A stretch of 64,000 nt of DNA from a virus. This document shows positions 39,106 through 59,443 of the stretch, piece after piece. Each line of letters opens with the position of its first letter. Position 1 is the first letter of the stretch. The stretch covers positions 62,001-126,000 of the IMG/VR virus record IMGVR_UViG_3300020203_000008. The stretch is one strand, 5' to 3'. The position numbers and the translations under genes are program-made. The notes under the pieces were generated by a model, which saw nothing but the letters and a program-made list of their open reading frames with translations, searched no databases and was not told where the DNA came from.

Positions 39106-39356
39106 TGATTCCAGATGGGACGCAAGACGTAGAGATTTTGAGCATCGGATTTCGCGATGACTTTGTTGAGATCACCTTCGCTGAAGCACGAGACCAGAAT
39201 CAGAACACAAGTTTGATTAAGGTCTTGAACTTCGCTAAAGGTTCAGTCGGCCCCGAAGTGGATGAGATGCTCTCAGACATCGTAGATATCGTAGACATCG
39301 TGCTCGACAAGCTTCGCAATATCCCCGAGCGCATTTCTGGTAGGAGAACAAATTGA
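39102..39356 (+). CDS. Small protein with Asp-Ile-Val triplets
   Basis: An 84-residue protein starting at an ATGA overlap. Near its C-terminus are three tandem DIV units (9-bp near-repeats at 39276-39302), then a basic tail. Its stop overlaps the next gene's TTG (TTGA). Function unknown. Confidence 0.6.
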   Translation: MMIPDGTQDVEILSIGFRDDFVEITFAEARDQNQNTSLIKVLNFAKGSVGPEVDEMLSDIVDIVDIVLDKLRNIPERISGRRTN

Positions 39357-40225
39357 GATTCTATCTGAGTGGTCCCATGCGTGGGATCAAGGAGCATAAT
39401 TTCCCGGCCTTCGATAAGGCCGCAGCTTCGCTAAGAAACTCAGGTCATGACATTCTAGATCCGGCTGCTTCCTTTCCTGGACAGCCAAACCCTGGACGTG
39501 CGGCATGTATGCGTCATGACATAATGCTAATTCTGGGAGTAGACGGAATCATCGTCCTCCCGGAGTGGCAGGCAAGTCCGGGAGCCAGGATGGAAGTAGC
39601 TGAGGCATGGGCCATCGACATCCCTGTTTACTCGTACCAGACGTGGCTTAATACCGGCAACTTTGTGGAAATCCCCCAATGTGTGGTGACTATCCCACGG
39701 GAAGATCAGTATTACCGCAAACTGTCGTTGGTCGGGCTCTCTGGGTTTGCTGAGGCAGGAAAAGATGAGGTAGCCCAGATCCTCCGGAAGTATGGCTGGA
39801 CCCGAGTTGCGTTTGCTGACCCCCTTAAAAAGGTTGCCACGGATATGGGTTGGTCAGGTAAGAAAGATGACACAGGACGACGACTCCTCCAAAGATTAGG
39901 GATCGCAGCCAGGGAGTACCTGGATCCTGATGTCTGGGTGGTGGCTGGAGAAAGACTGATTGAGTCTGCCCGAGGCCCGGTAGTGATCACCGATGTTCGT
40001 TTCCCAAACGAGTTGTTCATGGTTCGCCGTCGTGGGGGAATCATGATTAGGATAACCAGGCCAGGGAAAAGTGCAGTCAATGAACACGTCTCTGAGCGTG
40101 CTGTAACCCATGAGGACTGCGACTACTCCATCATAAATGATGGTTCACTTGAGGATCTTGAACGGAAAGTCATTCACCTCTTCGAGCGAAGAGGTCTGCC
40201 TATTTTGGAAGAGGTAAGCGTATGA
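39353..40225 (+). CDS. Fusion of a DUF4406-like domain and a deoxynucleoside monophosphate kinase
   Basis: A 290-residue protein with TTG start overlapping the previous stop (TTGA) and AGGAG at 39342-39346. Residues 1-100 match DUF4406 (RFYLSGPMRGI, then GVDGIIVLPEWQASPGARME), a fold related to nucleoside deoxyribosyltransferases. Residues 125-290 are a P-loop kinase opening with LVGLSGFAEAGKDEVAQIL, like T4 gp1-type dNMP kinases. Fusing both in one chain ties nucleotide salvage to dNDP production. The functional link is inferred. Confidence 0.75.
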   Translation: MRFYLSGPMRGIKEHNFPAFDKAAASLRNSGHDILDPAASFPGQPNPGRAACMRHDIMLILGVDGIIVLPEWQASPGARMEVAEAWAIDIPVYSYQTWLNTGNFVEIPQCVVTIPREDQYYRKLSLVGLSGFAEAGKDEVAQILRKYGWTRVAFADPLKKVATDMGWSGKKDDTGRRLLQRLGIAAREYLDPDVWVVAGERLIESARGPVVITDVRFPNELFMVRRRGGIMIRITRPGKSAVNEHVSERAVTHEDCDYSIINDGSLEDLERKVIHLFERRGLPILEEVSV

Positions 40226-43494: not shown

Positions 43495-43524
43495 AACATA
43501 CTATCGGGATGGCGGGACAGTCAA
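43495..43524 (-). promoter_or_regulatory. Promoter for the ParB-like gene
   Basis: On the minus strand TTGACT (43524-43519) is 18 bases ahead of TATGTT (43500-43495). The -35 matches 5 of 6 bases and the -10 matches 4 of 6. The -35 overlaps the stop codon of the bL12-like gene. The leader to the ATG is about 25 bases. Confidence 0.5.
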
Positions 43525-43988
43525 GCAAGATTTTTGGCAATCTCAACGAGCCCATCCTTGGCCTCTTGGATGGCAGCAGCCGACAGGTGGGACTTGCTGA
43601 TCTCAACGTTGGCTCCAATGGCAGCAAACCGTTCTACAATTTCCAAAGCAGACTTCTCTGAGATGGCCCGGTTCAGTAGCTGTGGCGCAGGGTCAAGACC
43701 ACCTGTCCGTTCAACAAGAGTTTTTGCTTCCTTCAAACCCAGGGAAGTGACCTGCCGTACTTCCTTGATGCAGGCGATTATTTTCTGGCCCCGATCGGTC
43801 AAGTAAACATCGTAAGGGCTTTCAAGGTCGTCCATGATGGTTGGCGTGACTCCGCTAGCCTTTTCAAGTGCGCTTACGAGATCGTTTCCTGTGAGGACAA
43901 GAAGAGTAATTATTTCTATGCCCGCAACTAGCCCCCCTTTGCTTTCTCTTTTTGCTTTCTCCCAGGCTTCAACTTCTGGAATCATCAT
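43521..43988 (-). CDS. bL12-like ribosomal protein (L7/L12), phage-encoded
   Basis: A 155-residue protein. Residues about 22-50 (LLVLTGNDLVSALEKASGV) resemble the bL12 N-terminal dimer/uL10-binding segment. Residues about 58-126 match the C-terminal factor-binding domain: YDVYLTDRGQKIIACIKEV, SLGLKEAKTLVER, and AIGANVEISK, with the hallmark GLKEAK helix. The hinge between is very short, and about 25 extra residues (LSAAAIQEAKDGLVEIAKNL) follow. It may join the ribosomal stalk or bind elongation factors. Start at 43988 overlaps the previous stop; ATG 43985 has better spacing to GGAGG. Confidence 0.85.
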   Translation of the reverse strand: MMIPEVEAWEKAKRESKGGLVAGIEIITLLVLTGNDLVSALEKASGVTPTIMDDLESPYDVYLTDRGQKIIACIKEVRQVTSLGLKEAKTLVERTGGLDPAPQLLNRAISEKSALEIVERFAAIGANVEISKSHLSAAAIQEAKDGLVEIAKNLA

Positions 43989-44614: not shown

Positions 44615-45520
44615 TTATTTACGTTCGGCTTTGAGCTTGTTTAGCCCAGCTTGGGTGATCGATCGACCGCTTTCAGTGTACTCGATCAGATCGAACTTAA
44701 ACAGGAGCCTCTCTAGGTCCCTGACGGTCGGGTCGGGGATCTGGAGAACACTCTGAATGGGCTTCAGTCCTGCGGTGCTGCCAAGCTTTACGAGTGCTCG
44801 CAGATACTTGTAGTGCATGGCCGAGAGCCCGATCTCGTCTACCCGGCAAAGGATCATCACTTCTTCTGCGATTGGGATTCGGTTCAGACTGTGCTGAAGA
44901 TCTCTGGCTGCAAGAACAAACTGACGTGCGTTCCTGGGGATTCCTCCCGTTGCCTTGCCAAGCTTCTGGGACACCTCGATCGAGAACTCTAGCTTAATCT
45001 TGATTGCCATGCCCGCAACGATCAGTCCCATCTCTTCGTTCGTGTACTCCTCGAACACGGGCTTTGTCGGGAAACGATCGAACAGCGGTGCGATCACCTT
45101 GTCGGGCTCGGTCGTAGCACCAATGACTGTGATTAGATTAGTGGAGTGCTTTCGTCCCCGCCGATCTTGGATGTATCCAGACTCCAGTAGGGGAAGGAGG
45201 CTCTCTTGTTCCTTCTTGGATCCCCGGTGGATCTCATCCAGAAGCAGGACGGTGGGTTCCCACTCGTTGTCTACTTCCTGGATCATGCTAATCATCGTTC
45301 GTTCATCCACCGGCATGGTCAGGCTGATGAATTCGTATCCAAGTTCCTTCGCAATGATTGTGGCGAGCGAAGTTTTACCAAACCCAGGCGGGCCGGTAAG
45401 TAGAATATGGTCGAGCATATGACCCTGCGCCACAGCAGAGGCAATATGGATACTCAGTCGATCCTTCAGCATGGTCTGACCAACAAAGTCTTTCCATGTG
45501 TCAACTCGAACCTGATCCAT
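44615..45520 (-). CDS. RuvB-like AAA+ branch-migration motor
   Basis: A 301-residue protein. Walker A is GPPGFGKTS (43-51), Walker B LLLDEIH (about 92-98), sensor 1 VIGATTEPDKV and an arginine-finger region LFDRFPTK. Residues 230-301 form the RuvB-type winged-helix domain. It is shorter than bacterial RuvB (about 335). It lacks a visible RuvA or RuvC partner here. It probably drives Holliday-junction movement during replication or recombination. Confidence 0.88.
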   Translation of the reverse strand: MDQVRVDTWKDFVGQTMLKDRLSIHIASAVAQGHMLDHILLTGPPGFGKTSLATIIAKELGYEFISLTMPVDERTMISMIQEVDNEWEPTVLLLDEIHRGSKKEQESLLPLLESGYIQDRRGRKHSTNLITVIGATTEPDKVIAPLFDRFPTKPVFEEYTNEEMGLIVAGMAIKIKLEFSIEVSQKLGKATGGIPRNARQFVLAARDLQHSLNRIPIAEEVMILCRVDEIGLSAMHYKYLRALVKLGSTAGLKPIQSVLQIPDPTVRDLERLLFKFDLIEYTESGRSITQAGLNKLKAERK

Positions 45521-50003: not shown

Positions 50004-50957
50004 CTAAAACTTCACGCTCGTCTTGAGGCCAACAATCGCCGTCTCGAACAAGCTCATACGAGACTTCGCCTCACCGAGACCAGTCTCCAAAAGCTCCTCG
50101 TACTCCACAGTGCGGGCAGTCAAACGCTGGTAATCAGTCACCAGCTTGGCATACCGATCAGATGAGATCTGCTTACCGGTGCGTTGGATCTCAGTGATCT
50201 CAGCCATGATCTCATCCACCGCATCACAAGTCTCAGCCTCAAAAGCCTTACGGACCATCTGACGCTGCTTCTTGTCATCGATCAGCGGCAAGGAGTGGAA
50301 CGTAGATTCCGTACCGGGGAGAGCGTTCACGAACGTCTCCAGAGATTCCATCTTGACAGCCTGATCTTCGGTGATGAAATATACTGCTCCACCTTCACGG
50401 ACCAGAGTCGCGCCGAAGTCCAGGACACGCTTTCGGATGAACTCTCGGATGGCATAGGCGTTCAGGGAATCCTTCCAAGCTGCAAACTCGGAACGAATCT
50501 CTTCGGTAATTTCATCAACCTTGAGGTTGCCATTCACGTTGTCAGGGAGATCCTTAACAACAATTGCTGTCGTGTTCTTGTGAAATTCGATATCCCGGAG
50601 CTGAACATAATCCAGCTTCCGACCCTTACGATCAACGGTCTGACGCACAATACGTCGGCAGATAACGTTCTCGCCACGACCACCGAAGTCTTCAACAAGG
50701 TAGTTCTCGAAGACATTCACGTTGCTAGTCGGGATCTTCTTACGTGCTGCGTTCGAAGCAACTCGGCGGAAAACGTCGAAGTCTTTCGGGTAGGGCGGGA
50801 TCGTGGACGAAAGACCTACGGTATTCAGTCCGTTCACAACGTCTGCGTGAGACACCTTAAGGGTTTGGGAGACGGTGTACCAACAAAGCCGACCGAGCAG
50901 TACGCTCTTGTCGGCCAGGTTGACTCGCTTTACATGCTCTTGCAAAATATCAGTCAA
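50004..50957 (-). CDS. DUF6744-like phage protein (TTG start)
   Basis: A 317-residue protein with TTG start after AGGAGG. It contains YIVCRRIVRQTVDRKG-like strands and MESLETFVNALPG, and resembles a phage protein family I recall as DUF6744; that name is from memory. Helical C-terminus with GEAKSRMSLFETAIVGLKTS. No function is known. Confidence 0.6.
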   Translation of the reverse strand: MTDILQEHVKRVNLADKSVLLGRLCWYTVSQTLKVSHADVVNGLNTVGLSSTIPPYPKDFDVFRRVASNAARKKIPTSNVNVFENYLVEDFGGRGENVICRRIVRQTVDRKGRKLDYVQLRDIEFHKNTTAIVVKDLPDNVNGNLKVDEITEEIRSEFAAWKDSLNAYAIREFIRKRVLDFGATLVREGGAVYFITEDQAVKMESLETFVNALPGTESTFHSLPLIDDKKQRQMVRKAFEAETCDAVDEIMAEITEIQRTGKQISSDRYAKLVTDYQRLTARTVEYEELLETGLGEAKSRMSLFETAIVGLKTSVKF

Positions 50958-51527: not shown

Positions 51528-51843
51528 GAGCCAACTCCTTAGCTACCCTCAGCAATCCCTCAGTGGCAGCCTCAAGATCTTCAATCGTTGGGACACGGGC
51601 CAAAGTTAGTCCCTTGCTGTTGATGGTAAAGGTTTGTGAGTACCAGTAATCTTCGAAACCTTCTGCTAAATGCACGGCCACATGCGGTAATATTTCGCTG
51701 CGGTTAGGTGAAGGACTTATGGAATCTACGACGACGTGAACACCGTTTAGCTTGTCTATACCGGAGGAGTCTACGCGCCAGGCTGTGGTGTCAATAACAT
51801 ACGTCTCGCCGATAATGACACTATAGGGAGTTGAAGATCTCAC
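51517..51843 (-). CDS. Phage protein downstream of ViaA-like gene, unknown
   Basis: A 108-residue protein starting at GTG 51843 inside the end of the ViaA-like gene. It is beta-rich (PYSVIIGETYVIDTTAWRV). Overlap suggests coupled expression with the VWA protein. Confidence 0.6.
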   Translation of the reverse strand: MRSSTPYSVIIGETYVIDTTAWRVDSSGIDKLNGVHVVVDSISPSPNRSEILPHVAVHLAEGFEDYWYSQTFTINSKGLTLARVPTIEDLEAATEGLLRVAKELAHGS

Positions 51844-53410
51844 GGACCGATTCCCCTGAAGTCAACGACTTAATAGTCGCGACCTGCTGATCGCAAATCG
51901 TCCACATAGGTTCATCTCTAGCGGATCCACCAATGTTCACTCCCCAGACCTGGAAACCAAGCCGGTCCTGTTCCTTCTTGAACTCCGTGAGCCACTGATC
52001 ATCCACACTGCACATACCATCAGTAGCGAACACGATGTCGGCCTTAACTGCACCAAACCGTTCGTGCTGCTCCTGAAGGATTGTCAGAGCATGAGTGAGG
52101 GGAGTCCGGAAATCGGTTCCCCCACCGAAGAAGAATTCAGCGAAGTCGAGCACCTTGTCGGCGTCGATGTTCTGTGAATCCCTAAAGTCGTCAATCCTGA
52201 TTTGGTGCGGACTGCCGAACTGGATTGCATAGAACTCTCGCTTCTGCTTCCTCGCAATGTGCAGCAAGCACAGACCAAGAGCCTTGGTCCATATTTCAGG
52301 CTCACCACTCATCGAACCAGAACCATCGTGGCAGAAAACAATGCCGCCCTTAGCGACCTTCTCATAACCGCGCATCTTGTACTGAAGCAGGTTCCGATCC
52401 ATGTACTGCTTGAAGAACTTCATCCTCCGTAGAGGGTGCATAAGCTGTCCAAGCTCAGACGGCAGGACACGACGCAGGTTATTGCCCTGCTCCACGTCAT
52501 ACACTTCTTCCGGCGTGTAGTTCACCTTGCGCCGGTTCTCGGTGAAGGCCAAACGCTTCATAGGACCAAACAGTTCAGCGATCTTCTTAAACTTCGGGCT
52601 ATTCAACTTCCGTGCAAGTTCCATACGCTCATTGGCGGGCAGACGGTGAAGTTGACCCGGCTCCAAACCCCAAGCCTGAGCCATGTTCTCCTGGGCTTCC
52701 ATGTCCTCATTGGCCTGCTTCATGGCCTGCTTCATAGCGCCACGGATCTCGGGACCCGCACCGTTCAAAGCATCCTTAAGCTCCTGGCCCTTCTCCTGCA
52801 TCTGCTGCTGGAGAGCTTCCATACGCTCCTGAAGCTGCTTAGCCTTCTCCTGGTAATCCTGAGGCTCCGAATCTTCGGGGTTGTTCTCAGTCCAATCCTT
52901 GAACATCTCCTCAAGGTCGCGCTGCTCCTGCTGAGCCTGAGCCATCTGCGCCATAAGCTCCTGAAGTTCCTGAGCAAGTTTCTGCTCCCCTTCGAGCTTG
53001 TCGTAAAGCGTTTCTATGTCAGGCTCAATGGTGTTGAATGCCAGAGCCGCACCAATGTCGTCGCCCTGAGTCCACATACGCAATTCTCTGTAGTCAGGGA
53101 GATCTACTGCTTCCTGCATAACCTTGCGGTTAACGAGGTTTTGAGGACGCACCTTGTTCTCGTCCAACAGGTCAGGATCAACCTTCCAAAGAGACAGGTA
53201 AAGATCCTGGGTTACTGGATAGGCAAGATCGCCAGCCTTGGAGTCGGCCAGCTTGTCTCGCATAGCCCGATATTCCTTCATCTCCTCTAGGAGACGTTGG
53301 TGATCTTGCCGGTCGTAACGGTCGCTATCAATCGTAAATGGTGAAAGGTCGTTAGGGTTTGGGCTCTTCTTGCCCTTACCCATCCAATCTTTGAGAAAAT
53401 CCTTAGCCAT
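51821..53410 (-). CDS. VWA protein, ViaA-like, partner of the RavA-like ATPase
   Basis: A 529-residue protein. The first 300 residues include a long Gln/Glu/Leu coiled coil (ALQQQMQEKGQELKDALNG). The VWA domain begins with VFCHDGSGSMSG (about residue 360), supplying the DxSxS metal site, followed by FGGGTDF and VFATDG, the other metal-site parts. Together with the RavA-like ATPase about 700 bases upstream, this matches the RavA-ViaA pair. ViaA is a CoxE-type VWA protein that stimulates RavA. The phage role is unknown. Confidence 0.8.
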   Translation of the reverse strand: MAKDFLKDWMGKGKKSPNPNDLSPFTIDSDRYDRQDHQRLLEEMKEYRAMRDKLADSKAGDLAYPVTQDLYLSLWKVDPDLLDENKVRPQNLVNRKVMQEAVDLPDYRELRMWTQGDDIGAALAFNTIEPDIETLYDKLEGEQKLAQELQELMAQMAQAQQEQRDLEEMFKDWTENNPEDSEPQDYQEKAKQLQERMEALQQQMQEKGQELKDALNGAGPEIRGAMKQAMKQANEDMEAQENMAQAWGLEPGQLHRLPANERMELARKLNSPKFKKIAELFGPMKRLAFTENRRKVNYTPEEVYDVEQGNNLRRVLPSELGQLMHPLRRMKFFKQYMDRNLLQYKMRGYEKVAKGGIVFCHDGSGSMSGEPEIWTKALGLCLLHIARKQKREFYAIQFGSPHQIRIDDFRDSQNIDADKVLDFAEFFFGGGTDFRTPLTHALTILQEQHERFGAVKADIVFATDGMCSVDDQWLTEFKKEQDRLGFQVWGVNIGGSARDEPMWTICDQQVATIKSLTSGESVREIFNSL

Positions 53411-53588
53411 GAGTTAGCCTTACTTCCGTGATTCTGTTACGCTGGATTGCAAGTTTGCTTTCAACAAAAACGTAATCCTTGTCCCAGCCAGTTACGGTCC
53501 AAGCACAGTTATCGTCATCATCATCAATGATGACTTGATCTCCTTTTTCAATCTCAATTTCTCTGGTAGCTTTTATCTTAAGGCTCAT
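53403..53588 (-). CDS. Small protein between RavA- and ViaA-like genes
   Basis: A 61-residue beta-like protein (KATREIEIEKGDQVIIDDDD, then WTVTGWDKDYVFVES). It overlaps the ViaA-like start by eight bases. Looks like an SH3- or KOW-like barrel; function unknown. Confidence 0.6.
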   Translation of the reverse strand: MSLKIKATREIEIEKGDQVIIDDDDDNCAWTVTGWDKDYVFVESKLAIQRNRITEVRLTHG

Positions 53589-54053
53589 TTAAATCCCCAA
53601 TACCTTCCTGGTAAAGATCGGCTTAATCAATTCCTCTAGCCCCTTAAAAGCATCACCTTGGATGCCGATATTCGTTCCTCCGTAGCTCAGGTGGTTGGGA
53701 ACACCAAGTGTAACAAGCATCTCACTCAGTCTAACGCCTGTTGCCTTGTGTTCCTCCATCCGCTCTTGCCTAATCGTTTGTGCAATCTGATGCTTCTTGA
53801 TATTGAAAGCTTCTTCAGATTCGCGCTTAGCAGATTCATCGGCATAGTCTTTCCACCAACCAACGATAGACCGACCATGGATCTTGTAGTCCATCCCAGT
53901 GAGAGTTGTGGAGTTAAGGTAAACAACCATTGGGTGACCCGTCTTGTCCCCAACGCGCTTAACTACACCTTTTACTGGGTGGAGCAAACCCAAGTTAAAC
54001 TTCTTGGAGACGATGGCAACTTCGGCTCCAGGGTAAAGATCGTCAGCGTTCAT
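53589..54053 (-). CDS. Protein in the RavA/ViaA cluster, unknown
   Basis: A 154-residue protein starting at ATG with GGAAGGAG ahead. The N-terminus (DDLYPGAEVAIVSKKFN, HPVKGVVKRVGDKTG) is beta-barrel-like, the rest helical. It lies after a hairpin and directly before the two VWA-cluster genes. Confidence 0.6.
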   Translation of the reverse strand: MNADDLYPGAEVAIVSKKFNLGLLHPVKGVVKRVGDKTGHPMVVYLNSTTLTGMDYKIHGRSIVGWWKDYADESAKRESEEAFNIKKHQIAQTIRQERMEEHKATGVRLSEMLVTLGVPNHLSYGGTNIGIQGDAFKGLEELIKPIFTRKVLGI

Positions 54054-54073
54054 CTGTCTCCTTCCGGGAGGGC

Positions 54074-54100
54074 TTGGGAGAGGGACGTTCCCCCTCCCAA
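54074..54100 (-). terminator. Hairpin after the RavA-like gene
   Basis: TTGGGAGAGGG (54074-54084) and CCCCCTCCCAA (54090-54100); on the minus strand all 11 positions pair, one as G-U, around a five-base loop. No T run follows, and the next ribosome site begins right after it, so it may attenuate or stabilise rather than fully stop. Confidence 0.5.
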
Positions 54101-54110
54101 CAAAGCTGCA

Positions 54111-55298
54111 CTAGAGAGAGACTTCAGTGTCGATATTGAAGATCTCTTTGAGCAGCCGCTTCGTGACACTCAACAGCCGGGTACGAACTTCCTCGACCTT
54201 GGCAGACTTACGCTTAGAAGACTCCACCTGCTTAGACAGCTTGTGGAGATCATCCTTAGCCTTGTCAACCTTGTTGTGAAGCTCCACACCCTTCTTGTTC
54301 TTCAACTGCGGATCAACCGACTTGTCAGCAAGAACCTTGTCAAGCTCACTTGACAGCTTCTCAACAGTTTCAAGCAGGCTCATAGCTTCCTTGTCGAGCG
54401 GATTTGCAAGCTCCAGAAGGAGACGCTCAACCTTAGGCTGCTCTTCCTTAGAAGTCCACAGGACGTGAGCCAAGGGACGCATGTGCTCGATATCCGCAAC
54501 CGTCTGACCGTCCAGATATGCGGCAGCCCTGATAATCTTCAGGCACTCCACAAAGCGTCGGTCGGTCGGCTCGATACCATCGGTGCGGAGATCCGCCCGG
54601 ACAGTCTGGAGGGCATCCAGAACGTCTCCAGGGACCTCAACAGCCAGACTGGCCTGGTGAGCTTCCTGAATCTCATCCCAAGTGATGAGCTTGTCGGTCG
54701 GTCCAGAAGCACTGATCTTGAGCATCTGGATAAAGTTCCCAGGCTCCTGAATGCGCTTCGTGATCAGCCGGAACTGCACTCGGTCATAGATGGCGTTCAG
54801 TTCCTCACCATCGGGAAGCTCGTTAGAAGCACAGAACATGGTGTGAAGGGGCAGGTCATGCACCTGACCATCGTTCCGGAACTTCCGTTCGTTCAATGCC
54901 CAAAGAAGCGTGTTCAGAATAGCCGAGTTGGCCTTCCAAATCTCGTCCAAGAACCAGACGTGAGCCTCAGGGGCAAAGCCCTTAGTGACGAATGCGAAAC
55001 GATCCTCTTCCAGGCCCTTAAGGCTGACAGGACCGTTGATCTCTTCCGGAGTGGAAGTACGGGTCATGAGCGTGTCGAAGAAGTTGTAATCTCCGCCGAT
55101 CATTTCCATCATCTTCACAATGGACCGCGACTTGGCCACACCAGGCTCACCGAGCTGGAAGTGGTGAGTCCCGGAAACCAAAGCGAGAACCTGAGTCTCG
55201 ATGATGTCGTTACGCTCGATCAGGTGGGTCCGGAGACCATCCTTCAGAGTCTCGAACTTCTCCGGCAAAGTCGGAGTAGTGGTGGTGGTGTCTGACAT
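54111..55298 (-). CDS. MoxR AAA+ ATPase, RavA-like
   Basis: A 395-residue ATPase. Walker A GEPGVAKS (50-57), then LMTRTSTPEEINGPVSL, Walker B WFLDEIWKANSAILNTLL, FCASNELPDG and the arginine-finger segment YDRVQFRL. The phrases LMTR-STPEE, FLDEIWKA and ASNELP match RavA closely. A helical C-terminal region (from about 300) replaces the RavA LARA insertion. The paired VWA gene supports a RavA-ViaA type chaperone-like system. Confidence 0.85.
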   Translation of the reverse strand: MSDTTTTTPTLPEKFETLKDGLRTHLIERNDIIETQVLALVSGTHHFQLGEPGVAKSRSIVKMMEMIGGDYNFFDTLMTRTSTPEEINGPVSLKGLEEDRFAFVTKGFAPEAHVWFLDEIWKANSAILNTLLWALNERKFRNDGQVHDLPLHTMFCASNELPDGEELNAIYDRVQFRLITKRIQEPGNFIQMLKISASGPTDKLITWDEIQEAHQASLAVEVPGDVLDALQTVRADLRTDGIEPTDRRFVECLKIIRAAAYLDGQTVADIEHMRPLAHVLWTSKEEQPKVERLLLELANPLDKEAMSLLETVEKLSSELDKVLADKSVDPQLKNKKGVELHNKVDKAKDDLHKLSKQVESSKRKSAKVEEVRTRLLSVTKRLLKEIFNIDTEVSL

Positions 55299-55320: not shown

Positions 55321-56142
55321 TTACTGGACTGGGATAGAAGGTAGAACTGTCTTGCAACCAAACTTTAGCTGATCAATTGTGCAATCTGTCGGGTTTTTAT
55401 CTGGCCTTGGCCGCATAAAAACGGGCTGGTAAAGTCTCGGCTCATGCCGATTGTTGCAATAGAGGTAACGTACTTCTATAACGTCACCTTCTACGAGCTT
55501 TGTCAGGTTCTTTTCTGTTACAGCTACTGAACCGACATCTGTGAGAATCCCATTGTCGTCATAAACGCTGACGGCAACGGAACGCTTACCTTCTCTGCCG
55601 ACCTCCGTGATGATGCAGTCAACAGTCTCAACAAGCTTGGCCTTAAGCGAGAAGTTAGAACGCTTGCCGCAGGTATACGGTGCATCCAACTTCTTGATCA
55701 TGAGGCCCTCAGCATTGTTATCTACAACCCAGCGGGCCAACCTAATCTTGTCTACCGCAGTAGTGCAAGATGGCACTAGCTTAATCCGTTGGGTTCGGGC
55801 TGATAGAACTGAGATTACAGGTACGAGACTTTCACGTCGGAGCTTGAACGCGGTCTCCGGTGTGATTCCTGGTGCAAGTGGTAGGTCGAAGACCCAGAAT
55901 ACACCGCCGACGACTTCGCCGTCAAGAACCCAATCTCCGTTGATTCCGGAGAGTAGGTCGGCGATCTCTCGGTCAACACGAGTTTCGTTGCGCCGACCGC
56001 AACCGAACACCTTGCCGTCCTTTACTCCGATGGCAAGACGCTCACCGTCGAGCTTCTGCTCGAATGCCCACTCGGAACTGTGAGCATATTCCTCAATGTC
56101 CCCAAAAGGGACACTGTTCGCAAGCTGAACCTCAAACTTCAA
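55321..56142 (-). CDS. ATP-dependent DNA ligase, minimal
   Basis: A 273-residue ligase. Motif I is EQKLDGERLA with catalytic Lys30; motif III VFWVFDLPL, motif IV EGLMIKKLD, motif V SLKAKLVE; the OB-fold ends with FMRPRPDK (motif VI-type). Only 29 residues precede the catalytic Lys, so there is no N-terminal DNA-binding domain. It seals nicks and could work with the Ku protein 3 kb upstream. Confidence 0.88.
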   Translation of the reverse strand: MKFEVQLANSVPFGDIEEYAHSSEWAFEQKLDGERLAIGVKDGKVFGCGRRNETRVDREIADLLSGINGDWVLDGEVVGGVFWVFDLPLAPGITPETAFKLRRESLVPVISVLSARTQRIKLVPSCTTAVDKIRLARWVVDNNAEGLMIKKLDAPYTCGKRSNFSLKAKLVETVDCIITEVGREGKRSVAVSVYDDNGILTDVGSVAVTEKNLTKLVEGDVIEVRYLYCNNRHEPRLYQPVFMRPRPDKNPTDCTIDQLKFGCKTVLPSIPVQ

Positions 56143-58339: not shown

Positions 58340-58607
58340 TAGCCCCCTTCGCTTCTTTGACGAAACCGAAAAGTTCCTTCAGCAGCTTGGCAGAAATACG
58401 TTTAAATTCGGCCTTCTGTTCGTCTGTCATGATGTTTGTCCATTGCAGGCCAATCTCTAGACCCGCCTTTTCAATCTTCTTGGAGTAGACCAAAAGCTTC
58501 GTCAAATCCTGGTCAATCATCTGAAGTTTCTGGGTGATCTCAGATTGCATCTTAATCTTGAGTTCCATGTCATCTTCGGTCAGGATTTTCTCGTCGCCAT
58601 CCGTCAT
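58329..58607 (-). CDS. Small helical protein, unknown
   Basis: A 92-residue helical protein (LKIKMQSEITQKLQMIDQDL). It begins at the Ku stop with a one-base overlap and so is translationally coupled to Ku. Confidence 0.6.
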   Translation of the reverse strand: MTDGDEKILTEDDMELKIKMQSEITQKLQMIDQDLTKLLVYSKKIEKAGLEIGLQWTNIMTDEQKAEFKRISAKLLKELFGFVKEAKGANDV

Positions 58608-59443
58608 TAGCTAGCCTTCTTTGCCGCTAGGGCAGCCAAAAGAACTGCCTCAAGGTCGTCATCAGACTTGGTAGCTGAGACTTCAGCCACAGGCTGATCT
58701 GAAGGTGCTCCACCAGTAGTCACCCAAGACACCAGATCGCTCAGACGCTTTCTGGAGCCCTTACGGTAGTCCTCCGGCTGGAACTCTGTCACTGACTGTT
58801 CCAGGAGGCTCTTAGCTGTCTCCAGAAGCGAGTTCTTAACTTCGATTTGCTGATCCTCAAAGGACTTGAGGTCCTCAGGCCAGACCAGTTCCTGCAAGAC
58901 AAGCTGATCGTTCAGGCCAAGCGTGACCTGGATGAGCTTGTCGTTCTTCCGCAGGTTCATCATTCCGATAAACACCAGTTCAGGATCTTGCTTCAGGATG
59001 TTCACCAGAACCGGGTAGAGCTTCCCACCATTGGCGGGACGAAACACGTAGGACGTGCCACTCTGGAAAGTGGAGTCCCGAACGTCGCTCAGACGGTGGA
59101 CGTTAAGCTCAAGCACGTTTGCCTCAAGCTCAGAGCCCTTAGCAAGCTCAACCTGCTCCTTAGTGAGCGGAATGATCTCGCCGTCGTCGTTCTCCTTACC
59201 CTTGGCAAGATCACCCATAGTGTGATCACTGTGCCCAGATTCCATGCAGCGGTAGAACTGCTTAACGGTACCGGGATAGCCACCGTCATTCAGAGCTACA
59301 CACTCGGGACAGAGTGAAACAAACTTCTCTTCTGAACCGGCACCAGTCACCTTAGCTGAAACAAGGTCACCAGTGACTTCCATGATGCCGAGAACAAGCG
59401 CCACACCCTTCTGGTATGCGCGATCCTTAACTGCTTTAGCCAT
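58607..59443 (-). CDS. Ku-family DNA end-binding protein
   Basis: A 278-residue protein. The central and C-terminal parts follow bacterial Ku: IIPLTKEQVELAKGSELEAN, then YVFRPANGGKLYPVLVNIL, FIGMMNLRKNDKLIQV, and LVLQELVWPEDLKSFE. The Ku barrel would encircle DNA ends. The N-terminus has CPECVALNDGGYPGTVKQFY and CMESGH, a possible zinc site. It starts after AGGAGG. Together with the DNA ligase it suggests end-joining or genome circularisation, as shown for Ku of mycobacteriophages Omega and Corndog. Confidence 0.82.
   Translation of the reverse strand: MAKAVKDRAYQKGVALVLGIMEVTGDLVSAKVTGAGSEEKFVSLCPECVALNDGGYPGTVKQFYRCMESGHSDHTMGDLAKGKENDDGEIIPLTKEQVELAKGSELEANVLELNVHRLSDVRDSTFQSGTSYVFRPANGGKLYPVLVNILKQDPELVFIGMMNLRKNDKLIQVTLGLNDQLVLQELVWPEDLKSFEDQQIEVKNSLLETAKSLLEQSVTEFQPEDYRKGSRKRLSDLVSWVTTGGAPSDQPVAEVSATKSDDDLEAVLLAALAAKKAS

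Follow-up and report, generated by a model that had tools for sequence, protein, structure and literature searches.

A RavA/ViaA-like ATPase–VWA pair in a phage recurs with a DUF6744 protein and may reshape DNA-processing complexes

What does a virus do with an ATPase and a VWA protein that resemble the RavA–ViaA pair of E. coli? MoxR–VWA machines are widespread, and to our knowledge they have identified targets in just a handful of systems (Rea1, NorQD, rubisco activase, and RavA–ViaA). The pair considered here lies in a window of 64,000 nucleotides (the whole stretch of DNA analyzed), bases 62001–126000 of the virus record IMGVR_UViG_3300020203_000008, which totals 136,572 bases. An earlier, sequence-only reading had placed the pair in a phage, and we agree, because the record includes tape-measure, primase-helicase, and ribonucleotide reductase genes. 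Both genes, and the two small open reading frames (ORFs) between them, were recovered where that reading had located them (Table 1).

Table 1. Positions, in window coordinates, of the genes and motifs discussed in the text
Feature	Position	Strand	Remarks
RavA-like MoxR AAA+ ATPase, 395 aa	54111..55298	-	AAA core and AAA_lid_8, then helical tail; without LARA insertion
Walker A, GEPGVAKS, residues 50–57	55128..55151	-	G50, P52, G53, K56 invariant in alignments A1 and A4
Walker B acidic pair D118–E119 in WFLDEIWK	54942..54947	-	invariant in alignments A1 and A4
ViaA-like VWA protein, 529 aa	51821..53410	-	helical N-terminal half, ViaA-like linker (GNNLRRVLPSEL), C-terminal VWA domain
MIDAS motif 1, DGSGS, residues 362–366	52313..52327	-	site completed by T432 (52115–52117) and D464 (52019–52021)
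DUF6744 protein, 317 aa; proposed third component (adaptor or client)	50004..50957	-	PF20529 2e-44
DUF6744 C-terminal helical module, ~residues 228–317	50004..50276	-	common to phage YqaJ exonuclease C-terminus in related phages
ATP-dependent DNA ligase	55321..56142	-	PF01068 6.6e-13; 22 bases upstream of ATPase gene, same gene run
Small gene, 154 aa, between ATPase and VWA	53589..54053	-	family matches: none
Small gene, 61 aa	53403..53588	-	overlaps VWA start by 8 bases; at best weak SH3-like match
Small gene, 108 aa	51517..51843	-	overlaps VWA stop
Small gene, 114 aa	51183..51527	-	ORF list

The ATPase carries a complete MoxR-type AAA+ core, with K56, D118, E119, and N159 (Walker A, Walker B, and sensor 1) invariant among homologues. 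Its best Pfam match is PF20030 bpMoxR (7.4e-44), followed by AAA_5 (4.5e-16) and AAA_lid_8 (3.4e-12); it also matches the solved structure of E. coli RavA (3nbx, E 2.8e-47), and is approximately 37% identical to RavA across the AAA core. The RavA phrases LMTRTSTPEE, FLDEIWKA, and ASNELP, on which the sequence-only reading had relied, are present. The NCBIfam RavA model gives 195.9 bits against an equivalog cut-off of 681 bits, which is not reached; the LARA domain is absent, its place being taken by a single large gap in the alignment with Salmonella RavA; and on the ATPase tree true RavA is set apart in a small clade of its own.

The VWA protein matches NCBIfam ViaA (E 3e-20, 72.9 bits, residues 141–466; the equivalog cut-off of 500 bits is not reached) and PHROG 24053 (1e-71). 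The complete metal site ascribed to it is there (D362-x-S364-x-S366, T432, and D464), with D362, S364, T432, and D464 invariant and S366 more than 90% conserved across 41–49 VWA homologues. In the AlphaFold model (pLDDT 89.3), residues 264–529 align with the Rea1 MIDAS domain over 208 residues (Z 18.1) and with NorD in NorQD over 233 (Z 16.0). The protein has no peptidase domain, and it ends in ESVREIFNSL where ViaA has its Arg-rich, phospholipid-binding helix; its last 15 residues contain one R or K, against six in Salmonella ViaA and a mean of 1.25 in the phage proteins. Its PADLOC matches were coiled-coil noise, and no convincing PADLOC match was found.

Judged by these comparisons, the two proteins are relatives of RavA and ViaA, with a resemblance far beyond chance, and not RavA/ViaA proper, because neither comes near its equivalog cut-off, and LARA and the Arg-rich ViaA C-terminus are absent. 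The likeness to E. coli and Salmonella RavA–ViaA takes in the adjacent, same-strand arrangement, the Walker A, Walker B, and sensor residues, and the ViaA-like linker followed by a VWA domain with complete MIDAS; besides the features just named, the phage pair differs in its link to DUF6744 and DNA-metabolism genes.

That link involves what we propose to be a third and more telling partner, missed by the sequence-only reading: the DUF6744 protein encoded nearby (PF20529; 152.3 bits over residues 14–314, exceeding the Pfam gathering cut-off of 27 bits). When synteny of RavA/ViaA-like pairs in other phages was examined, as that reading had recommended, the ATPase and VWA genes shared a strand in 70 of 70 viral contigs, with a median gap of 14.5 bases. 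A DUF6744 gene lies within 7 kb of the pair in 41 of these 70 contigs (within 1.5 kb in 36), on the same strand in 41/41, and farther from the pair in 6 additional contigs; Pfam confirmed the assignment in 39 of 43. Its position relative to the pair varies among the 41 contigs, being upstream in 22, between the two genes in 4, and downstream in 15. DUF6744 accompanies 31 of 66 ATPase–VWA pairs in cellular genomes as well, and its presence requires 14 changes on the ATPase tree versus 48.6 for shuffled labels, with none of 500 shuffles as low. ATPase, VWA protein, and DUF6744 are a well-supported three-gene set, recurring in dozens of unrelated phages.

In the search for these viral relatives, single-protein scans returned one each and alignment-based scans were far more productive. 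Several matches in phage collections were apparent host sequence, namely ravA–viaA of E. coli or Salmonella in phage-deposited records (for example, AFYI01000003, OR845595, and probably MG065691), and these were left out of the phage members together with a LARA-bearing bacterial RavA (L010). An apparent DUF6744–VWA fusion in another contig (L100) was a chimera at the contig end and was ignored. The DNA ligase gene is context, outside the conserved module, with homologues in only two of the related loci compared (L072 and L075). The 154-aa ORF has no meaningful match in Pfam, PHROGs, or NCBIfam and no homologue in the related loci; the same three collections yielded nothing meaningful for the 61-aa ORF, whose Pfam match to PF17902 SH3_10 (E 0.0028) is below cut-off.

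A scan from DUF6744 alone approached the association from the other side; the full alignment was too divergent for this purpose, and a tighter subset worked. It recovered 18 viral contigs, 8 with the RavA-type pair. bpMoxR was absent from the remaining 10, and every one of these carried another VWA type (DUF2201 metallopeptidase–VWA in 9, CobT_C in 3), more than 10 kb from DUF6744 in two of them. Neither DUF2201–VWA nor CobT_C scored above cut-off in any of 23 RavA-type contigs. DUF6744 thus stays in place as the motor type changes. Among 80 viral loci found via DUF2201–VWA, DUF6744 is nearby in 23 and the RavA-type pair in none. A constant partner with an exchanged motor points to a physical link between motor and target.

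The DUF6744 protein was modeled with AlphaFold (pLDDT 93.7, pTM 0.86), and Foldseek returned nothing from the PDB at E ≤ 0.001. VIA-align gave middling Z scores to the CorA coiled coil, YugN, and RnlA, within the range of unrelated models, and no function was drawn from them. Its C-terminal module matches the C-terminus of an exonuclease identified as YqaJ (HMM E 4e-7 to 0.012; profile–profile probability 93%); the shared part is a helical segment, seen in four phages of a single related group. A possible homology between this module and the helical tail of the ATPase was rejected (profile probability 4.5%). DUF6744 may, in a doubtful extension of these findings, define an undescribed class of viral AAA–VWA systems: one adaptor, with a portable C-terminal helical module shared with a recombination exonuclease, and interchangeable motors (RavA/ViaA-like, DUF2201-type, and CobT-like). 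The class would remodel the complexes in which viral DNA is replicated or recombined, and would span phages and at least one haloarchaeal virus.

The neighbors of the trio are mostly replication and recombination genes (helicases, primases, DnaB, exonucleases, RecT, Sak4, DNA polymerase, ligase, PD-(D/E)XK nuclease, and uracil-DNA glycosylase); head or tail genes are absent from its top 25 neighbor families. Non-structural phage genes cluster in any case, so that an early gene of any kind could be expected to have some of these replication neighbors. Because the DUF6744 trio recurs in phages, usually beside replication and recombination genes, it is probably a phage tool that reshapes DNA-processing complexes and does not act on respiration or membranes. 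We favor, at a probability of roughly 45%, a reading in which the trio uses ATP to remodel the complexes that process phage DNA, and in which DUF6744 serves as adaptor or client. The ATPase, like RavA, would form a hexameric ring; by analogy with RavA–ViaA, Rea1, and NorQ–NorD, the VWA protein would dock on it via its helical N-terminal half and grip the target through its MIDAS. We infer that DUF6744 would join motor to target as a dedicated adaptor or client. The likeliest target, a complex that replicates or recombines phage DNA, would be loaded, activated, or dismantled with ATP. Rea1, in which ATPase and VWA are one chain and not the separate chains of the phage, and NorQ–NorD act on clients different from those of the phage system.

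The alternative that the pair performs the function of RavA–ViaA proper, remodeling host respiratory complexes or membranes as the E. coli proteins do with Nuo, Frd, and phospholipids, draws on homology to both partners, which for ViaA extends past the VWA domain into the linker. LARA, however, is required in E. coli for LdcI and phosphatidylglycerol binding, and it is missing here. The Arg-rich ViaA C-terminus, which binds lipid (PMC9489729), is replaced; true RavA forms its own clade; and the conserved partner is DUF6744, absent from the RavA–ViaA operons examined here. We consider this function very improbable, and the findings argue against transferring E. coli respiratory or membrane roles to phage RavA-like genes. 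The sequence-only reading thus stands in its account of a RavA/ViaA-like pair, kept together and distinct from CobS/CobT, but not in its carry-over of those roles. Metal insertion of the cobaltochelatase type, the competing kinship that reading had itself named, has next to no likelihood: in some DUF6744 phages a CobT-like VWA protein does fill this role, but neither CobT_C (PF11775) nor DUF2201 (PF09967) was matched anywhere in the whole virus record, CobS/CobT families are absent among the Pfam and NCBIfam matches of the pair at E ≤ 0.1, and the pair scores as RavA/ViaA.

Two further roles would keep a MoxR–VWA machine and change its client. A virion-assembly chaperone, helping to fold or build capsid, tail, or fibers with DUF6744 as client, has precedent in Acidianus two-tailed virus (ATV) p618/p892, for which such a role is shown, and in the proposal made for group 2.2 jumbo phages (PMC7824862, PMC7911831); Bicaudavirus MoxR proteins also occur among the ATPase matches. 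Yet these genes stand in the half of the window that is minus-strand and non-structural, apart from the tape-measure region, and DNA metabolism, not head or tail families, recurs beside the trio, so that we regard this role as unlikely. A conflict module, blocking host defense or superinfecting phages with DUF6744 as a sensor-type third component, seems rather unlikely too. The MoxR–vWA ternary conflict systems of bacteria (with VMAP, iSTAND, FtsH, and beta-propeller components; PMC7159879) share the plan of MoxR, vWA, and one more conserved protein, and gave their name to bpMoxR, the Pfam model that scores best on the window ATPase. Several Paenibacillus genomes encode, after the trio, a protein similar to GmrSD_N/DUF262 from type IV restriction systems, and GmrSD_N is also found among the viral neighbors. 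But the third component here is DUF6744, the setting is a phage and not multicellular bacteria, the window proteins have neither a fused effector domain nor a convincing PADLOC match, and genes for replication and recombination surround most of the trios in phages.

Phage MoxR–VWA pairs are already known; our literature search found no paper on DUF6744 and no publication on its link to MoxR–VWA pairs. In group 2.2 jumbo phages a MoxR ATPase likewise adjoins its VWA partner, which is fused to a metallopeptidase, unlike the window VWA protein and like the version found here in related DUF6744 phages; the accessible part of that report describes no third component (PMC7824862). Bacillus phage 0305phi8-36 orf66/orf63 were described as a "MoxR-type metalloprotein chaperonin", with two subunits recognized and DUF6744 not tied to them in the portion of the paper available (PMC2147016); a 218,948-base contig that is probably this phage (L030) has the same ATPase–VWA pair, with DUF6744 elsewhere on the contig. 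ATV (p618/p892) and the haloviruses HVTV-1 and Hardycor1 all have a viral AAA ATPase adjoining a vWA–MIDAS protein. The ATV pair differs in its role in extracellular tail development, whereas HVTV-1 shares the DUF6744 protein (HVTV1_25; fold E 4.7e-16, HMM E 1e-27), its ATPase and VWA protein not being recognized by the models built here. With a constant partner, several phage annotations of "RavA", "CobS/CobT", and "MoxR" become one testable system, and DUF6744 gains its first functional context. In a related lineage of approximately 16 contigs without DUF6744, the ATPase–VWA pair has a reverse transcriptase nearby.

The RavA-like MoxR AAA+ ATPase and the ViaA-like VWA protein of this virus very probably form one functional module with a third component, the DUF6744 protein (PF20529, E 2e-44), at a probability of about 0.85. 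The sequence confirmed the placement of the ATPase and VWA genes in the sequence-only reading, together with their characteristic phrases, the metal site and the two small intervening ORFs. Within the source virus record (136,572 bases), every gene from the ligase (56142) to DUF6744 (50004) lies on the minus strand, mostly with overlaps or short gaps; the largest gap (225 bases, ORFs counted) directly precedes DUF6744, which follows the VWA gene 864 bases downstream.

Coordinates of the features in the window and in two related viral loci
Feature	Position (strand)	Remarks
DUF6744 gene	50004-50957 (-)	
VWA gene	51821-53410 (-)	
Inverted repeat	54075-54110	G+C-rich, gggaggggg aacg tccctctccc (by eye), between ATPase stop and 154-aa gene; possibly an attenuator or mRNA-stability hairpin
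ATPase gene	54111-55298 (-)	
ATP-dependent DNA ligase	55321-56142 (-)	
Ku-like protein	58607-59443 (-)	PF02735 2.1e-6; PHROG 4873 1.1e-11
RuvB-like ATPase	44615-45520 (-)	RuvB_N 1.3e-27; RuvB_C 1.6e-11
Ribosomal protein L7/L12 C-terminal domain	43521-43988 (-)	phage-encoded; 4.4e-15
DUF4406 fused to deoxynucleotide monophosphate kinase domain	39353-40225 (+)	
YqaJ exonuclease, viral locus L029	10904-12151	downstream of trio; DUF6744-like helical tail
Next ORF (287 aa), L029	12154-13014	same tail (by eye); RecT-like gene follows
Reverse-transcriptase lineage of RavA-type phages without DUF6744, viral locus L049	8859-9782	equivalents in 16 viral contigs

Moorella phage MTATph1 and one unrelated viral contig likewise have DUF6744 adjacent to this pair. 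Alignment-based scans returned 32 and 53 viral loci and, after deduplication, 70 with both ATPase and VWA; all 70 pairs are on one strand, at a median gap of 14.5 bases. DUF6744 falls inside the 7-kb flanks of 41 of these pairs, on the same strand in all 41 and within 1.5 kb in 36, in varying positions (upstream 22, between 4, downstream 15), and six more viral contigs carry it elsewhere. Pfam by itself identifies 39 of 43 DUF6744 members. Cellular genomes, mostly of Bacillota, show DUF6744 with 31 of 66 ATPase-VWA pairs. On a quick ATPase tree with long branches, the window's included, DUF6744 presence is strongly clustered (14 changes versus 48.6 when shuffled) and has therefore been passed on together with certain motor lineages; true RavA sequences form a small clade without it on this same long-branched tree.

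Because these loci had been picked via the ATPase or the VWA protein, a search from DUF6744 alone was added, using an alignment (A10) that excludes the window sequence. It found 18 viral loci, 8 with an adjacent RavA-type pair (bpMoxR-type ATPase and ViaA-like VWA), some being contigs already known; in the other 10, bpMoxR matched nothing along the whole contig. Nine of those 10 carry a DUF2201 metallopeptidase-VWA and three a CobT-type VWA, so that each has at least one such protein, and 8 have an ORF with a MIDAS no more than 10 kb from DUF6744, in most cases with an AAA ORF next to it. Neither VWA type exceeded the cut-off in any of 23 RavA-type DUF6744 contigs, the window's among them. Conversely, of 80 viral loci found via DUF2201-VWA, 23 had DUF6744 nearby, in some only 30-70 bases away, and none had a RavA-type pair. 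The haloarchaeal virus HVTV-1 encodes a DUF6744 protein and, some 15 kb away, an AAA-vWA pair of its own. These results are given as counts rather than a probability because the contigs are not independent; their simplest reading is that DUF6744 partners AAA-VWA motors generally, the motor having been exchanged in evolution.

The earlier description of the pair as RavA-ViaA-like stands as a likeness, but not as RavA and ViaA proper. The best Pfam match of the ATPase is bpMoxR (E 7.4e-44), with AAA_lid_8 also matched; it also matches the sequence of the crystallised RavA (E 2.8e-47), and scores 195.9 bits against the NCBIfam RavA model (cut-off 681). The ViaA model matches the VWA protein at E 3e-20 (72.9 bits; cut-off 500), extending past the VWA domain to cover the ViaA linker as well (GNNLRRVLPSEL in the window, GDDILRLLPPEL in Salmonella ViaA), and the two proteins keep intact Walker A, Walker B, sensor 1 and MIDAS motifs. 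However, the ATPase lacks the LARA insertion, and an acidic-hydrophobic tail, also found in most relatives, replaces the Arg-rich ViaA C-terminus. Judged by sequence, the proteins are RavA-like and ViaA-like. In E. coli, LARA is required for binding LdcI and phosphatidylglycerol but dispensable for ViaA binding, and the C-terminal arginines of ViaA bind lipid (PMC9489729); the phage pair may therefore retain what ATPase-VWA cooperation needs, without the features tying RavA-ViaA to LdcI and lipids.

The DUF6744 model is confident (pLDDT 93.7, pTM 0.86) and found no confident match in the PDB. In the VWA model (pLDDT 89.3), the N-terminal half is long and helical; predicted residues 264-529 align to the MIDAS domain of Rea1 (Z 18.1), and 275-529 to NorD in NorQD (Z 16.0). 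In Rea1, a MoxR-type ring serves as the docking site for the VWA part, which holds the client, an arrangement that NorQD presumably shares, judging from structure entry titles. By analogy, the window VWA protein would dock on the MoxR-type ATPase ring and hold a client.

Neighbours suggest that this client may belong to DNA processing. Among 122 proteins of at least 230 aa around viral trios, DNA helicases, primases, DnaB, exonucleases, RecT, Sak4, DNA polymerase, ligases, PD-(D/E)XK nucleases and uracil-DNA glycosylases prevail, and the 25 commonest families include none for heads or tails. The trio's strand in the window also carries the ligase, Ku-like and RuvB-like genes, and four related phages have a YqaJ exonuclease whose C-terminus repeats the C-terminal helices of DUF6744. 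Early phage genes cluster anyway and the neighbour counts have no matched control, so remodeling of phage DNA-processing complexes is a tentative proposal, at slightly less than even odds.

MoxR-VWA pairs are already known from phages and archaeal viruses: group 2.2 jumbo phages, with virion assembly proposed (PMC7824862), Bacillus phage 0305phi8-36 (PMC2147016), and Acidianus two-tailed virus and haloviruses (PMC7911831). Bacteria harbor MoxR-vWA ternary conflict systems (PMC7159879). The openly accessible literature searched yielded no mention of DUF6744/PF20529.

The Ku-like and ligase genes, about 2.5 kb apart on one strand, are a possible phage end-joining pair. Phages usually take RuvB from the host; here a RuvB-like ATPase is phage-encoded. 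In the L049-type lineage, the sequence judged by eye shows a reverse transcriptase with a YADD motif downstream of the ATPase-VWA pair and, upstream of it, an ORF similar to RNA polymerase beta. In Paenibacillus (L119, L124, L126, L131, L147, L149, L182), a protein resembling GmrSD_N/DUF262 follows the cellular trio, which suggests that the genes there belong to a chromosomal island, possibly one that serves in defence. Four phage-labelled records (MG065691, OR845595, OR850905, AFYI01000003) probably contain host ravA-viaA sequence, which would inflate any phage RavA count.
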